NCBI RefSeq assembly: GCF_947503125.1
Contig: NZ_CANNCR010000016.1
Coordinates: 1 to 64,000, forward strand
Origin: an uncultured Metabacillus sp.
GTDB lineage: Bacteria; Bacillota; Bacilli; Bacillales; Bacillaceae
Direction of reading: 5' to 3'
Length of the DNA: 64,000 nt
The notes below the pieces were generated by a model that made no database searches, was not told where the DNA came from, and saw only the letters and a list, made by a program, of their open reading frames with translations. Of the stretch, positions 55,285 through 60,092 are shown piece by piece. Every line of letters starts with the position of its first letter. Within the stretch, counting starts at the first letter, position 1. Position numbers and translations under genes: made by a program.

Positions 55285-56454
55285 ATGACAATCAAATTTG
55301 ATAAATCAAAAGCTTTTAATGAAGCAAAAACAAAATTAACAGCGGTTCTTGCAAGTGAGAACAGCACAGAAAAGGAACAAACAGACGCCTTTCAAAATTT
55401 CTTTGATGCTTTACAATCTGAAGTAGTTAATACTGTTCGTTCCCAGGTAAACGATGAAATGCTAGACCGTTCAATTCTTCAGCAACGCGGCCAAAATGTA
55501 TTAACTTCTGAAGAAATGAAATTCTTTAATGCTGCTGTATTAGATGGTGGATTTAAAGATGATTCAATCCTTCCTGTTACTACTCAAGAGCGTGTGTTTG
55601 AAGATTTAACTACAGAGCATCCGTTACTTGAAGCATTAGGATTGCAAGATCTAGGTGCAGTAACTCGTTTCATTTATTCCGACCCTACAAAAGCTTATGC
55701 ATGGGGACAATTATTCGGCGGTATTGCTGGACAAGTAAATGCAGCATTTAGCGAAGAACAATTTGGTCAGTTAAAACTTACAGCATTTGCAGTTATTCCA
55801 AACGATATGTTAGAACTTGGTCCAGTTTGGGTTGAGCGCTATGTACGTACACTCTTAGTAGAATCATATTCTGTTGGTTTAGAATACGGTTTTGTAAATG
55901 GAACTGGTAACAATCAACCAATCGGACTAATGAAAAATGTTGATCCGGATACAGGAGCGGTTACCACTAAAACTTCTTCTGGTACATTAACATTCGCTCC
56001 TTCTCAATACGGTGAAGTTGTTTCTGGGGAGCTTTATGAAGTTATTAAAGCTCTATCTACCGATGCAGACGGTAAATCACTTAAAGTATTAAACAAAGTT
56101 GTAATGGTAGTAAATCCTGTGGACGCAATCGGTGTCCAAGCGCGTAATACTATCCAAACTGCTAATGGTCAATGGGTAATGGCTCTTCCATACAACATTC
56201 AAGTTGTTGAATCTGAGGAAGTTCCTGTTGGAAAAGCTCTATTCTTTGTTAAAGGTCGTTATTTAGCAGCAATTGCTGGTGGGTACAAACTTAAGAAGTT
56301 CGATCAAACATTAGCAATTGAAGATGCCACACTTTACACAATTAAGCAGTTTGCAAATGGTAAACCAAAAGATAATAAGGCTGCCTTAGTTTATGACTTA
56401 GATATCTCATTTGCACCATCTACAACCACAACAACTACTAATGGCGGGGCTTAA
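55285..56454 (+). CDS. Major capsid protein (HK97 fold) with Thr-rich C-terminus
   Basis: 389 residues. The N-terminal ~100 residues form the helical delta/scaffold region removed by the protease, followed by the HK97-fold body (TQERVFEDLTTEHPLLEALG, DMLELGPVWVERYVRT). The end is unusual: PSTTTTTTNGGA (six Thr, 56422-56439) instead of a plain C-terminus. A similar tail ends the major tail protein. The 15 bp covering its last codons and beyond (TGGCGGGGCTTAATA) also occur behind the major tail gene. See findings. Confidence 0.92.
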   Translation: MTIKFDKSKAFNEAKTKLTAVLASENSTEKEQTDAFQNFFDALQSEVVNTVRSQVNDEMLDRSILQQRGQNVLTSEEMKFFNAAVLDGGFKDDSILPVTTQERVFEDLTTEHPLLEALGLQDLGAVTRFIYSDPTKAYAWGQLFGGIAGQVNAAFSEEQFGQLKLTAFAVIPNDMLELGPVWVERYVRTLLVESYSVGLEYGFVNGTGNNQPIGLMKNVDPDTGAVTTKTSSGTLTFAPSQYGEVVSGELYEVIKALSTDADGKSLKVLNKVVMVVNPVDAIGVQARNTIQTANGQWVMALPYNIQVVESEEVPVGKALFFVKGRYLAAIAGGYKLKKFDQTLAIEDATLYTIKQFANGKPKDNKAALVYDLDISFAPSTTTTTTNGGA

Positions 56455-56468
56455 TAGGGGTGATGTAA

Positions 56469-56783
56469 TTGGAAATCACACCTGAATTATTAAAATCTTT
56501 CAAAGATAGAATGCATATCACTCATAACAGTGAAGATAATTATTTGAAAGAGCTTATTGAAACATCATATGAAGATATTAAAAGCAAATGTGGCGAATTT
56601 GATATCAATACTGCTCTTAGAGGGAAAGAGCTTGTTTTCGAAAGATCACGCTATGCATATAATGATGCCCTTGAATATTTTGACGACAACTTTTTAAGTC
56701 AAATTAATAGCTATGCTTTTGATAATCTTCCTGATACAACAACAACGACTACTACAACAACGACAACAACCATTCCAGGATAA
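56469..56783 (+). CDS. Head-tail connector with 12-threonine tail
   Basis: A 104-residue gp6-like connector (helical, LKSFKDRMHITHNSEDNYLK) that joins portal and neck. The last 15 residues run D, twelve Thr, IPG. The codons are ACA, ACG, ACT and ACC in mixed order, so the stretch is not simple slippage of one codon only. TTG start at 56469 after GGGGTGATG. The unusual tail matches the Thr-rich ends of the capsid and tail proteins. Confidence 0.82.
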   Translation: MEITPELLKSFKDRMHITHNSEDNYLKELIETSYEDIKSKCGEFDINTALRGKELVFERSRYAYNDALEYFDDNFLSQINSYAFDNLPDTTTTTTTTTTTTIPG

Positions 56784-56795
56784 GGGGTGAAGCAG

Positions 56796-57167
56796 ATGCA
56801 GCCATTTGAATATAAACCACCTCGTGTTGGTACAGGTGATCTGCGTACACTTGTCACATTTTTTGAATATGCTCCAAATGAAGGTCCGTTACCAGGTGAA
56901 TCTGAGAAACGGACCCTTTTTGTTGCCTGGGCAAAAATAGATCGTGTGTGGCTGAAGGATTTGGAATTAGCAAAGGCAAATGGTACCTTATCTGATGTAA
57001 CCATTACTATTAGAGATCCTCAATCTGATTACAGACCAACGAATTTACATTATTTAGAGATTGATGATCCTGATTATAAAGATAGGGTCTATAACATCAA
57101 AACAGCTCAGCCTAATTTGCAAAACAGACAATTTATAGATATTGTGGCCGGAGACCAGGAACAATGA
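56796..57167 (+). CDS. Head closure protein
   Basis: 123 residues with the head-closure signature (KPPRVGTGDLRTLVTFFEYA and TITIRDPQSDYRPTNLHYLE) of SPP1 gp16-like proteins, which stopper the portal and join the tail. ATG at 56796 follows GGGGTGAAGC. The GTG at 56787 is part of the ribosome site. Its stop overlaps the next ATG. Confidence 0.85.
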   Translation: MQPFEYKPPRVGTGDLRTLVTFFEYAPNEGPLPGESEKRTLFVAWAKIDRVWLKDLELAKANGTLSDVTITIRDPQSDYRPTNLHYLEIDDPDYKDRVYNIKTAQPNLQNRQFIDIVAGDQEQ

Positions 57168-57556
57168 GTGTAAATGTTACTGGTTTAAATAAGTTGATGG
57201 CAGATTTAGAAAAACGCTTTGGTAAAACTAAAATGCAAACGATTAGTGATAATGCTCTAAAACAAGGGGCAGAGGTTTTTGTCAGAGAACTAAAAAGTCA
57301 ATTTGAAACTTTCAAAGATACTGGGGCATCTATAGATGAAATAACCATTTCTGAGCCATTTTGGGTGGGGGATGTCCGAACAATAAAGATTCATTGGCGA
57401 GGACCTAAAGAGCGTTACCGCATTATTCATTTAAATGAATGGGGAACTGTTAAGAACCCTAACCAAAAAGGGAAAGGTGCTATTGCTAGAGCTTTGCGTA
57501 ATGCAGAAAATGCATATAGGAAAGCTGTTAGTGATGCAATTAGGAGAGGGATTTAG
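57164..57556 (+). CDS. HK97 gp10-like tail completion protein
   Basis: 130 residues, with the family pattern (LKQGAEVFVRELKSQFETFK, then HLNEWGTVKNPNQKGKGAIA). It completes the neck between the head and the tail tube. Coupled to the previous gene by an ATGA overlap. Confidence 0.87.
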   Translation: MSVNVTGLNKLMADLEKRFGKTKMQTISDNALKQGAEVFVRELKSQFETFKDTGASIDEITISEPFWVGDVRTIKIHWRGPKERYRIIHLNEWGTVKNPNQKGKGAIARALRNAENAYRKAVSDAIRRGI

Positions 57557-57933
57557 TGATTTATAAAATCTATGAAGCTTTAATTGCTGATACTCTCATA
57601 CAAGAAAAAGTAGGAAGTAGGATCAAATTCTATGAATATCCTGCCACTGGTGATGTAACAGGGCCGTATATCATTATAGATCCGTTAGGTCCACCGATAC
57701 CTGGAGATTATGCAGATAATGAGCCCTTGACAGATGAATATTTGTATCAAGTTGAAGTTTGGTCTAAAAGCTTATCTGATACCGGTATCATTGCAAAACA
57801 AATCCGAAAAGTTTTGAGAAAAAATCTTGGTATTCCTCAATATGGAACAGGCGTTGATGAATGGGATCAAGAAACGGCCATTTATCGTGATGCCAGGAGA
57901 TACCGGGGAAAAGAGTACGTGGAGGACGCCTAA
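57556..57933 (+). CDS. Tail completion protein (DUF3168/gp17-like)
   Basis: 125 residues, with IRKVLRKNLGIPQYGTGVDE and IYRDARRYRGK typical of tail-terminator/completion proteins. GTG at 57556 overlaps the previous TAG. Its stop codon is inside a terminator-like hairpin, which probably reduces transcription into the major tail gene or sets its level. Confidence 0.82.
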   Translation: MIYKIYEALIADTLIQEKVGSRIKFYEYPATGDVTGPYIIIDPLGPPIPGDYADNEPLTDEYLYQVEVWSKSLSDTGIIAKQIRKVLRKNLGIPQYGTGVDEWDQETAIYRDARRYRGKEYVEDA

Positions 57934-57949
57934 AAGGTGTCCTTTTTAG
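57924..57949 (+). terminator. Hairpin terminator before the major tail gene
   Basis: GGACGCC pairs with GGTGTCC (one G-U) across the loop TAAAA, which is the stop codon plus two bases, followed by TTTTT. Confidence 0.75.
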
Positions 57950-57977
57950 TTTCAATTACAAGGAGGAAAAATGACTT

Positions 57978-58604
57978 ATGCCAAAAAAATATAAAGCTTC
58001 AACAGGTATAGATGAGTTTTATTATGCAAAGCTCGATGAAACTGGTACTGCAGTAATTGTTGGAGTTCCAGAACGTATTAAATTTTTACAAAATATTAAT
58101 ATTGAAATGCCTCAAGAAGCAGTTCGTGCTTATGGTGATAACCAAACGGCTGAAATTGCAGTATCATCAGGAAATATTACAGTAACGTCTGCATTTCATA
58201 AATTGCCTGATGAAGATAAAGCTGTATTATTCGGGCTAGAAAAAACAGCTGGCGGTCTTTATGCTTACGGATCAAGCGATACTCCTCCATATGTAGCTTG
58301 TGTATTTGCAAAAACATATGAAGATGGAAGTAAGGAATGGGTTGGTTTAACAAAAGGTATTTTCATGCGTCCTAATACTGAAAGCCAAACAAAACAAGAC
58401 GGTGTAGAATTTTCCACAGAAGAAGTTTCTGCTGAGTTTATGGATCGAGAAGTTGATGGATTTGTAGAAGAAAAATCCGTTGTGTTTGGCCGTGATGAAA
58501 AAGGCGAAACTGTTCAGCGTGATGCTCTCTTCCAAGCTATTTTTGGTCAGCCATATCCAAGCACTTCTACAACCACCACTACCACTACAACTGGCGGGGC
58601 TTAA
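57978..58604 (+). CDS. Major tail protein (phi13-type) with Thr-rich C-terminus
   Basis: A 208-residue tail-tube protein, similar in layout to phi13/TP901-1-type major tail proteins (KLDETGTAVIVGVPERIKFL and AEIAVSSGNITVTSAFHKLP). The C-terminus is PSTSTTTTTTTTGGA, nine Thr with one Ser, like the capsid protein. A 15-bp sequence at its end is identical to that at the capsid gene's end. AAGGAGG precedes the ATG. The next gene is a glycosyltransferase, which is the likely modifier of these Thr residues (inference). Confidence 0.9.
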   Translation: MPKKYKASTGIDEFYYAKLDETGTAVIVGVPERIKFLQNINIEMPQEAVRAYGDNQTAEIAVSSGNITVTSAFHKLPDEDKAVLFGLEKTAGGLYAYGSSDTPPYVACVFAKTYEDGSKEWVGLTKGIFMRPNTESQTKQDGVEFSTEEVSAEFMDREVDGFVEEKSVVFGRDEKGETVQRDALFQAIFGQPYPSTSTTTTTTTTGGA

Positions 58605-58615
58605 TATAATAGCTT

Positions 58616-59686
58616 ATGAAGTTTATACTTTGTCAGCCAGCAATCAAGCGTTTTGAATGGGAATTAGAAGTTTGTTTAACTAGGTTAAACAAACTCGGCA
58701 TACAAGATATTGTCCTGCTGTTCGCGCAGTGGGACAATTCAATTCCCGAGTATTTGCAAGAAAAATACAGTGTTGAAGTGCATGTGTATGATGATACTCA
58801 CAGAAATAAAAGCTATATCCCTTCTGTAAAACCTTATTTATGGATGAAGTATTTAGCGGAGGATCCGACAAGGGAAAAGGATACCTATTTCTATTTAGAT
58901 AGTGATGTGCTGATAATGGAAATACCAAATGTAATTCCTTCTGAAAGTGTTTGGTATGCATCTAATTGTCAAAGTTACATTGGTATTGATTATATCGATA
59001 GTAAAGGCCCTGATTTATTAGATCGCATGTGTAAAGTTATGGACATCGATCCTTTGATAATAAGGAAAAATAAGCCAATAGGTGGCGCTCAATGGGTGAT
59101 AAAAAACCCTACTTTTGAGTATTGGAAAAAGGTTTATGAAGATTCATTGAAATTATTCAAGTTTCTTTCTTCAGTTGAAAATGATTATATTCGTAAGAAT
59201 GGTTCAGATTATACACCCATACAAAAGTGGACAGCGGAAATGTGGGCACAATTATGGAATGTTTATCATTTTGGAAAGACAGTTCAAGTTGATCAAGAAC
59301 TTAATTTTTGTTGGCCTACTGATCCAGTAGAGAAATATTATTTAACAAAGATTTATCATAATGCCGGAGTCCTAGACGATAATCAAAATTTATTTTTTAA
59401 AGGTAAGTATACAAATAGAGCACCCTTCCATGATGATTTTAGCCGGATAGATCAAAGTAAAGCATCAATTGAGTATGTTAAAGCAATTTCCGATGTAAAA
59501 GAGGTGAAAACATTGAAATATGAGGTTATTCATCCTTTCCACGATTTACAGGACAAAAACAAAATCTATAGCATAGGTGACACTTTCCCCAAGCCAGCCA
59601 GTAAAAGAGTTGCTAAAAAGCGTATAGAAGAATTGCTTTCAAGCGAAAACAAGCTTGGGCGGCCCTTGATCAAGCTAGTTGAGTAG
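58616..59686 (+). CDS. Glycosyltransferase (GT-A fold) in the tail operon, fused to a small C-terminal domain
   Basis: 356 residues. Residues 1-295 fit a GT-A glycosyltransferase. The nucleotide-sugar-binding DxD is YLDSDVLIME, preceded by a Rossmann-like N-terminus (MKFILCQPAIKRFEWELEVC) and followed by GGAQWVIKN and YTPIQKWTAEMWAQLWNVYH. It uses a nucleotide sugar plus metal to glycosylate an acceptor. Residues 300-356 are a separate small domain (KYEVIHPFHDLQDKNKIYSI) that is a free-standing protein in other phages, as I remember, and an internal ribosome site and TTG (59513) allow it to be made alone. No strong ribosome site precedes 58616. Acceptors are probably the Thr-tailed structural proteins. 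Inference. Confidence 0.78.
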   Translation: MKFILCQPAIKRFEWELEVCLTRLNKLGIQDIVLLFAQWDNSIPEYLQEKYSVEVHVYDDTHRNKSYIPSVKPYLWMKYLAEDPTREKDTYFYLDSDVLIMEIPNVIPSESVWYASNCQSYIGIDYIDSKGPDLLDRMCKVMDIDPLIIRKNKPIGGAQWVIKNPTFEYWKKVYEDSLKLFKFLSSVENDYIRKNGSDYTPIQKWTAEMWAQLWNVYHFGKTVQVDQELNFCWPTDPVEKYYLTKIYHNAGVLDDNQNLFFKGKYTNRAPFHDDFSRIDQSKASIEYVKAISDVKEVKTLKYEVIHPFHDLQDKNKIYSIGDTFPKPASKRVAKKRIEELLSSENKLGRPLIKLVE

Positions 59687-59741: not shown

Positions 59742-60092
59742 ATGGCAACATTAAAACGTAATATGATCGAATTGGTGAAAGAAGTTAAAGAAGGTGAAAT
59801 TGTTACCGAAAAATATTTAACCCCGGTTTTTATCCCCTTATCTGTCGTTTATGAAGCTCTTGATTTGAATAGTGAACTACAAAAAGTAAATGTATCTAAT
59901 GAAAAGGAAATTACTGATAAGTTTATTGATTTTATAGTTAACAAGGTTTATAAAGGACAGTTTACTAGAGAAGAACTAATTAATGGATTACATGCACCGG
60001 ATGCAATTTCTACACTTCATGAACAAGTTTTATTTATCACTCAAGGATATCAAAGTGATGCAACAAAAAAGTACCTGGCGAAGAAAAGTTAA
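59742..60092 (+). CDS. Tail assembly chaperone, upstream product (gpG-like)
   Basis: A 116-residue chaperone for the tape measure, present just before it in siphoviruses. AAAGTGAGG is the ribosome site. Its sequence (PVFIPLSVVYEALDLNSELQ) is helical, as in the phage tail-chaperone family. Near its end A AAA AAG at 60065-60071 allows a -1 frameshift giving a longer product (see next entry). Confidence 0.83.
   Translation: MATLKRNMIELVKEVKEGEIVTEKYLTPVFIPLSVVYEALDLNSELQKVNVSNEKEITDKFIDFIVNKVYKGQFTREELINGLHAPDAISTLHEQVLFITQGYQSDATKKYLAKKS

Follow-up and report, generated by a model that had tools for sequence, protein, structure and literature searches.

Threonine-tailed virion proteins and a predicted GT-A glycosyltransferase: a putative virion O-glycosylation system in a Metabacillus prophage and related phages

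The first 64,000 nucleotides of contig NZ_CANNCR010000016.1 from an uncultured Metabacillus sp. (assembly GCF_947503125.1; hereafter the window) hold a large part of the late region of a tailed-phage-type prophage. Three of its structural proteins, namely the major capsid protein, the first head-tail connector and the major tail protein (MTP), carry runs of threonine (Thr) at the C-terminus, and a predicted glycosyltransferase gene lies among the genes of the same region. The question raised by this locus is whether the enzyme and the Thr tails belong together and, if so, in what way. An earlier note, made from the letters of the window, had proposed that they form one system for the O-glycosylation of virions. 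This proposal is supported by the co-occurrence of enzyme and tails, by their joint change on trees, by the variety of virion proteins concerned and by the upkeep of the tails at the level of the protein; phage-encoded O-glycosylation of C-terminal poly-Thr tags is, in our judgement, very probably the best explanation of these data.

The C-termini read PS-T6-NGGA (capsid), D-T12-IPG (connector) and STS-T8-GGA (MTP). Six Thr for the capsid protein and 12 for the connector had been counted before, and both numbers are exact, each run being pure; the 9 given for the MTP are reached only by including a Thr that precedes a Ser, the pure run being of 8 residues. The transferase gene does begin, as had been noted, 11 bp after the MTP stop codon (at 58616). 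Among 125 open reading frames (ORFs) of at least 60 aa in the window, only these three contain a run of at least 5 Thr, and none of 20,000 residue shuffles per protein gave a run of the respective length within the last 20 residues. Together with the relatives described below, these shuffles rule out a chance origin of the runs. A search of the + strand of the downstream continuation of the prophage (L379) for Thr runs found none.

Co-occurrence and joint change of enzyme and tails

The search of phage genomes for co-occurrence that the earlier note had called for gave a clear result. A Thr-tailed ORF, defined here as a complete ORF of at least 60 aa with at least 5 Thr within its last 30 residues, is present in 113 of 114 loci with the enzyme gene, versus 1 of 144 loci without it. 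Loci selected by their Thr pattern were left out of this count, the window and its copy L001 were included, and loci were not de-duplicated by contig. Counted by distinct entries, the 114 loci represent 81 enzyme proteins, all of which (81/81) are accompanied by a tail, and the 144 represent 121 capsid entries, with 5 loci lacking a capsid match each counted as its own. Eighty viral loci had been fetched with the enzyme as query and more with capsid and MTP queries that were cut before the tails; the capsid queries L034 and L029 originate from enzyme-positive phages.

The association can be followed within protein families, where a tail was taken as at least 4 Thr within the last 40 residues. 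The numbers of loci with enzyme and tail, with enzyme only, with neither and with tail only are 22/0/81/0 for the window-type capsid, 49/2/29/0 for the L034-type capsid (two cut ORFs excluded), 4/0/26/0 for the L029-type capsid (one excluded) and 19/0/0/0 for the L042-type capsid, which comprises enzyme-positive loci only. Corresponding values are 46/4/17/1 for the L034-type MTP and 18/0/25/0 for the L029-type MTP, a third MTP query giving the same loci as the latter. Apart from two exceptions, presence of the tail matches presence of the enzyme throughout three of the capsid families.

The whole records of 120 enzyme-less loci, many of them fragments, were searched for the enzyme family, and it was found in none (0/120). 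These records include 11 of the 26 enzyme-less L029-type capsid loci, the other 15 being judged on the fetched stretch. The same search does find the gene in the window genome and in the record of L189; an enzyme hidden beyond short flanks is thereby rejected for the records searched. All 219 tailed ORFs of at least 90 aa (219/219) lie on the strand of the enzyme, and the nearest tailed ORF is less than 100 nt from it in 99 of 113 loci. Fifty loci were retrieved from GTDB genomes, and each of the 35 from Bacillota has a tailed ORF (35/35), several of these being the same prophages as in IMG/VR.

Near-identical phages are particularly informative. L304 and L306 share capsids of 98% identity, four genes between enzyme and MTP of 90-98.5% and an MTP body of 92%, and despite this they differ in the enzyme and in both tails. 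Two tails about 3 kb apart switch together, with the intervening genes being retained. In L085, an enzyme-less relative with capsid and MTP at 84% identity and the same gene order, capsid, connector and MTP are free of Thr runs; the ORF list goes from the MTP directly to the chaperone homologue, with no ORF of at least 85 aa between the two. The numbers of changes on the capsid trees are 6, 5 and 2 for the enzyme, versus 6, 4 and 2 for the tail. Among the supported independent pairs, 7 of 8 are concordant and none is opposite, the remaining one being without a change of tail. A sign test pooled over the 7 differing pairs gives p 0.016; no single capsid family is significant, because there are too few pairs per family. 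That the tails occur in close relatives almost only together with the enzyme gene suggests that the phage coats its own particle with sugar.

The tails, the enzyme and its distant homologues

Thr strings at the ends of shell and tail proteins are found in many phages of Gram-positive bacteria. The tailed ORFs of at least 90 aa from enzyme-positive loci have 151 distinct bodies and fall into 19 clusters (BLAST, 1e-4). Sixteen cluster representatives and the three window-type clusters have between them 15 best PHROGs, of which some are remotely linked to one another. Besides major head proteins or head-protease fusions and major tail or tail tube proteins, the families matched include a portal, a connector and a virion structural protein. 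Five cultured phages were fetched and all fit the pattern of enzyme plus Thr run: Lactococcus phage 1706 (Thr10 on the MTP, Thr9 on a fusion of head protease and capsid), bIL285 (MTP, Thr9), VPE25 (MTP, Thr10), Staphylococcus phage PMBT8 (MTP, Thr16) and Lactobacillus phage Bacchae, in which three small Thr-run proteins adjoin the enzyme.

Every one of the 198 Thr runs (152 distinct tails) mixes at least two codons, and adjacent codons are the same in 294 of 1106 cases (0.266, with 0.273 expected). As codons are mixed at chance frequency, the runs are kept by selection on the protein; judged by their coding, the tails are maintained as protein and not as DNA repeats. Within lineages, particular residues (SHA, SA, SHV, AAV) are found repeatedly after the Thr run. 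The capsid and MTP of a given phage often end alike after the run (GGA, SA, SHA, AAV), examples of like C-termini being the window, L085, L093 and L033; some enzyme-less phages have capsid and MTP endings in common as well, e.g. PAGA and PEGA. Small proteins with repeated, mucin-like Thr runs stand directly before the enzyme in L024, L030, L032, L064, L068, L072 and L381. Repeated PTTTTTTT arrays occur in such small proteins adjoining the enzyme, and the two array proteins tested (L024, L064) match the major tail protein family phrog_341, L024 additionally an Ig-domain structural family.

The enzyme itself matches the profile of phrog_4417, a family of unassigned function, over nearly its full length (E 1.9e-112; residues 1-295 versus 1-292 of 293), and residues 301-356 form a small extra domain (phrog_3673) that is absent from many homologues. 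When the window protein is aligned with 37 homologues that are 30-84% identical to it, G157-A158-Q159 is invariant in addition to the putative catalytic motifs listed in Table 1. An AlphaFold2 model has a mean predicted local distance difference test (pLDDT) score of 92.7, and its top Foldseek rows are glycosyltransferases: WbbM, the catalytic domain of UGGT, alpha-1,3-galactosyltransferase, glycogenin, LgtC, a GT8 protein and GlyE (5gvw). The 50 rows listed have E values of 9e-8 to 6.3e-6, and are enzymes of GT-A type. LgtC, glycogenin, GlyE, UGGT and alpha-1,3-galactosyltransferase belong to families GT8, GT24 and GT6, and the HNAG...FxK residues of the enzyme resemble the HxxGxxKPW motif of GT8. 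Because of the high pLDDT and the glycosyltransferase rows in Foldseek, the model strongly suggests a GT-A glycosyltransferase; from the fold neighbours alone, a retaining (alpha) reaction is suggested. The DxD-type glycosyltransferase named in the earlier note stands as a prediction, with DxD invariant in 38 sequences and a GT-A-type model. Among the 38 aligned members, sequence models of glycosyltransferases give only marginal matches (PF13704 in 2, best 0.058; PF23452 in 1, 0.0057). The gene is rare per genome, since the copy of the window's own genome was the only one both in a scan of Bacillota genomes (1/398) and in the window genome plus relatives (1/21).

Fifteen of the 50 GTDB loci hold distant homologues (28-35% identity), mostly in Bacteroidota. 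Among them, only L427 has a tailed ORF, a pinensin-type lanthipeptide precursor that ends in Thr13-KAPAVIL and lies 5.5 kb upstream of the homologue, near which a dehydratase C-terminal or thiopeptide-type protein (Lant_dehydr_C) is also found. A lantibiotic dehydratase N-terminal protein (Lant_dehydr_N) is located near the homologue in L422, LanC-like proteins (LANC_like) follow it directly in L423 and L425, and L423 has a C39-peptidase transporter nearby; in L432, a GG-leader-type peptide with Thr6 directly precedes it, with a match below the cut-off. In total, 5 of 15 distant loci have library matches typical of lanthipeptides or, more generally, of ribosomally synthesized and post-translationally modified peptides (RiPPs), and similar ORFs are seen by eye in most others. 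The distant proteins are mostly longer (479-829 aa in listed loci, except L420, L421, L431 and L434), and the second part of the L423 homologue, the one tested in full, matches PF02709. None of the neighbours examined could be recognised as a major head or tail protein. The RiPP-type genes around some of these homologues indicate a peptide-modifying enzyme; they put part of the wider family, at the least, among enzymes that modify ribosomal peptides, the context expected of a peptide O-glycosyltransferase. In a Chitinophaga genome (L431:8057-11023), a 327-aa ORF with a Thr/Ser run stands beside two tandem ORFs; the second of these is the retrieved homologue of the enzyme, and the first, judged by eye, resembles one as well.

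Proposed mechanism and competing explanations

Based on this dataset, we hypothesize that a cytosolic GT-A glycosyltransferase (58616-59686) would use a host nucleotide-sugar and a metal bound by its DxD motif, and would add sugar to the hydroxyls of the flexible poly-Thr C-termini of capsid, connector and MTP. Head and tail tube of the particle would then be covered by a short coat resembling mucin. Sugar transfer, Thr as its acceptor, a modification present on virion subunits and exposure of the tails are what we infer from the pattern described above. The benefit may lie in a shielded surface, in solubility, in adhesion or in resistance to proteases. Glycosylation of mycobacteriophage particles is reported to shield them from antibodies (PMC12363180). 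Such shielding seems unlikely as a general reason for phages whose hosts live in soil, food or salt habitats.

It is improbable that the enzyme glycosylates phage DNA or host cell-wall polymers, with the tails being unmodified spacers that are associated with it by linkage. GT-A glycosyltransferases do act on many kinds of acceptors. Phage VPE25, which carries a homologue, has a DNA modification that its authors ascribe to glycosylation (PMC4999554), and the short distance of the enzyme from one tailed gene in most loci would fit linkage. Linkage poorly explains two tails that switch together across conserved untailed genes; the spread of tails over 19 clusters with 15 different best PHROGs and the peptide-modification surroundings of at least 5 of 15 distant homologues also speak against this alternative.

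A second alternative, to which we likewise give little credence, would have the Thr tails serve as a docking tag bound by the enzyme, which would modify other virion residues or proteins. The lineage-specific residues past the Thr run are what a docking motif would show. The Thr themselves are kept via mixed synonymous codons in runs of varying length, as acceptors would be, and the PTTTTTTT arrays beside the enzyme resemble multi-site acceptors. A third possibility, which is very improbable, is another modification of the tails (e.g. phosphorylation) or a GT-A-fold enzyme whose transferred group is not a sugar. It would be in line with the searches, which found no activity for phrog_4417 and no curated family match; against it stand the conserved DxD and HNAG and the glycosyltransferases in the listed Foldseek rows. 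Neutral triplet-repeat expansion, which homopolymeric runs of variable length might bring to mind, has a negligible chance of being correct, as no run is of a single codon, neighbouring codons match no more than by chance, and only one of the 144 enzyme-less loci has such a run; the codon evidence rules out triplet slippage.

Several observations weigh against O-glycosylation of the Thr tails by the enzyme. Enzyme-positive L038 and L077 lack a capsid tail, and L032 and L069 lack an MTP tail, with L052 and L292 giving only a 78-aa frame; L028 has the enzyme and no C-terminal tail within its 10-kb fragment. The capsid trees are not free of recombination, and gene linkage could account for part of the association. 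In phage 1706, an ORF annotated as holin has a Thr7 run close to its end, and the tag is therefore not strictly limited to virion proteins. A structure model of the MTP has a mean pLDDT of 52.8 and is uninformative on tail exposure. The window enzyme gave no Pfam match at E 1, no NCBIfam match at 0.01 and no useful PDB sequence match, and the query-normalised template modelling (TM) scores of the 50 Foldseek rows listed are modest (0.34-0.46). L420, L421 and L431 have neither a RiPP match nor the look of one in the parts examined.

Tails without the enzyme also belong here. The earlier note had regarded relatives with tails and no transferase as telling against the link: among loci fetched by capsid or MTP, such a case was found once, in L323, where an untailed capsid accompanies an MTP with a Thr7 tail and the enzyme is absent from the whole record; in unrelated viruses it is frequent. 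Viral contigs were scanned for eight Thr codons close to a stop codon. Of the 120 loci among the matches listed, 11 have the enzyme in the fetched stretch; 40 chosen from the other 109 were searched as whole records, and 1 of 40 has it. An enzyme universal to Thr-tailed viruses is thus ruled out by the many such viruses that lack it, and poly-Thr tails are a larger phenomenon that extends to other viruses. L173, L183, L194, L214, L236, L238, L287 and others have at least two Thr-tailed ORFs and no phrog_4417 in the stretch, with runs of up to at least 24 Thr. One protein that recurs in contigs of this kind is about 185 aa long and has an end similar to SPYFxVTYA-Thr(n). Among 130 ORFs near tails in 21 multi-tail loci, 4 match PF00534, those identified being in L174 (above the Pfam cut-off) and in L207 and L233 (below it); an ORF of L242 matches PF01075. 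A tie of other glycosyltransferases to Thr tails is suggestive only.

Locus context and comparison with known systems

The features of the locus are listed in Table 1. ORFs for a portal and a ClpP-like protease complete the late region together with capsid, connectors, MTP, an unannotated ORF and tail chaperone; a terminase-like ORF and the start of a tape-measure-like ORF, both assigned by eye, are also in the window. The best PHROG of the first connector, phrog_749, is itself unnamed. The prophage extends beyond the window on the same contig (L379). There, L379:3142-4560 encodes a 472-aa protein with an O-antigen ligase domain (Wzy_C, PF04932, E 1.5e-23) amid prophage genes, which possibly serves lysogenic surface conversion and might conceivably be tied to glycosylation. 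A tyrosine recombinase gene (PF00589; L379:5931-6923) has an unusual place between the Dit-like and spike-like ORFs and the Tal-like ORF, an arrangement that hints at rearrangement or switching of a segment for host recognition.

Table 1. Coordinates of the late-region features in the window and its continuation
Feature	Position	Strand	Remarks
Major capsid protein (phage capsid family), C-terminal Thr6	55285..56454	+	PF05065, E 9e-13; phrog_10, E 4.1e-49
Capsid Thr6 run	56422..56439	+	residues 380-385; codons ACA ACC ACA ACA ACT ACT
Head-tail connector 1 (gp6-like), C-terminal Thr12	56469..56783	+	PF05135, E 1.2e-4; phrog_749, E 8.3e-35
Connector Thr12 run	56736..56771	+	residues 90-101
Head closure protein, no Thr tag	56787..57167	+	phrog_25, PF05521
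Tail completion / neck protein, no Thr tag	57164..57556	+	phrog_5
Tail terminator, no Thr tag	57556..57933	+	phrog_78
MTP, C-terminal Thr8	57978..58604	+	PF04630, E 2.3e-6; phrog_88, E 2.4e-52
MTP Thr8 run	58569..58592	+	residues 198-205
Predicted virion-tag glycosyltransferase, GT-A fold	58616..59686	+	between MTP and tail chaperone genes
DxD motif D95-S96-D97	58898..58906	+	both Asp invariant in 38 aligned sequences
H248-N249-A250-G251	59357..59368	+	invariant in 38 aligned sequences; invariant F260 and K262 downstream
Tail assembly chaperone	59742..60092	+	PF23857, E 1.6e-28
Dit-like ORF	L379:472-1362		role assigned by eye
Spike-like ORF	L379:1377-2999		role assigned by eye
Tal-like ORF	L379:6871-8871		role assigned by eye

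If O-glycosylation of the tails is correct, the system would consist of one enzyme and a minimal peptide tag that may be transplantable. Since glycosylation of particles affects how phages encounter surfaces and antibodies, it bears on phage ecology and therapy, and a possible source of such virion-glycosylation systems is suggested by the link to RiPP enzymes. A wider scheme, to which we give even chances, would make the homopolymeric Thr tail a portable, enzyme-specific glycosylation tag, read by an enzyme family common to RiPP clusters of Bacteroidota and phages of Bacillota. Phages would evolve this tag repeatedly on an exposed capsid, tail, portal or decoration protein and so obtain a mucin-like coat over the whole particle, and unrelated viruses would use the same tag with other glycosyltransferases.

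Serine-rich repeat glycosylation in Gram-positive bacteria adds sugars in the cytosol to low-complexity Ser/Thr regions; its acceptors are cellular adhesins, and it involves several enzymes and dedicated secretion. In contrast, a single gene among virion genes is found here, and GlyE (5gvw) is one of the fold matches. Bacteroidota lanthipeptide and RiPP clusters share the homologous domain (28-35% identity) and peptides with Thr runs (Thr6 in L432, Thr13 in L427), whereas their proteins are mostly longer than the window enzyme and the neighbours examined include no major head or tail protein. The predicted fold and DxD are like those of GT8-, GT24- and GT6-type GT-A enzymes; unlike these, the window enzyme has no sequence match to them at the cut-offs used, and query TM is 0.34-0.46. 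Virion glycosylation in the mycobacteriophages Che8, Corndog and Myrna is said to have been described by Freeman et al. in 2023. Glycosyltransferases encoded by these phages are reported to modify capsid and tail tube proteins (PMC12363180). The window prophage is similar in that it carries a predicted glycosyltransferase gene, here between the MTP and chaperone genes. It differs at the sequence level, as no Mycobacterium phage is among 75 phage records that match the catalytic part of the enzyme (tblastn, 1e-3). Poly-Thr tails of virion proteins were not reported among the literature matches listed (titles and abstract openings, with subscription literature sparsely covered and bioRxiv outside). 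The data support a system of a known kind, phage-encoded virion glycosylation, with an enzyme family that, as far as searched, had not been assigned to it and with a homopolymeric tag dedicated to the acceptor role.

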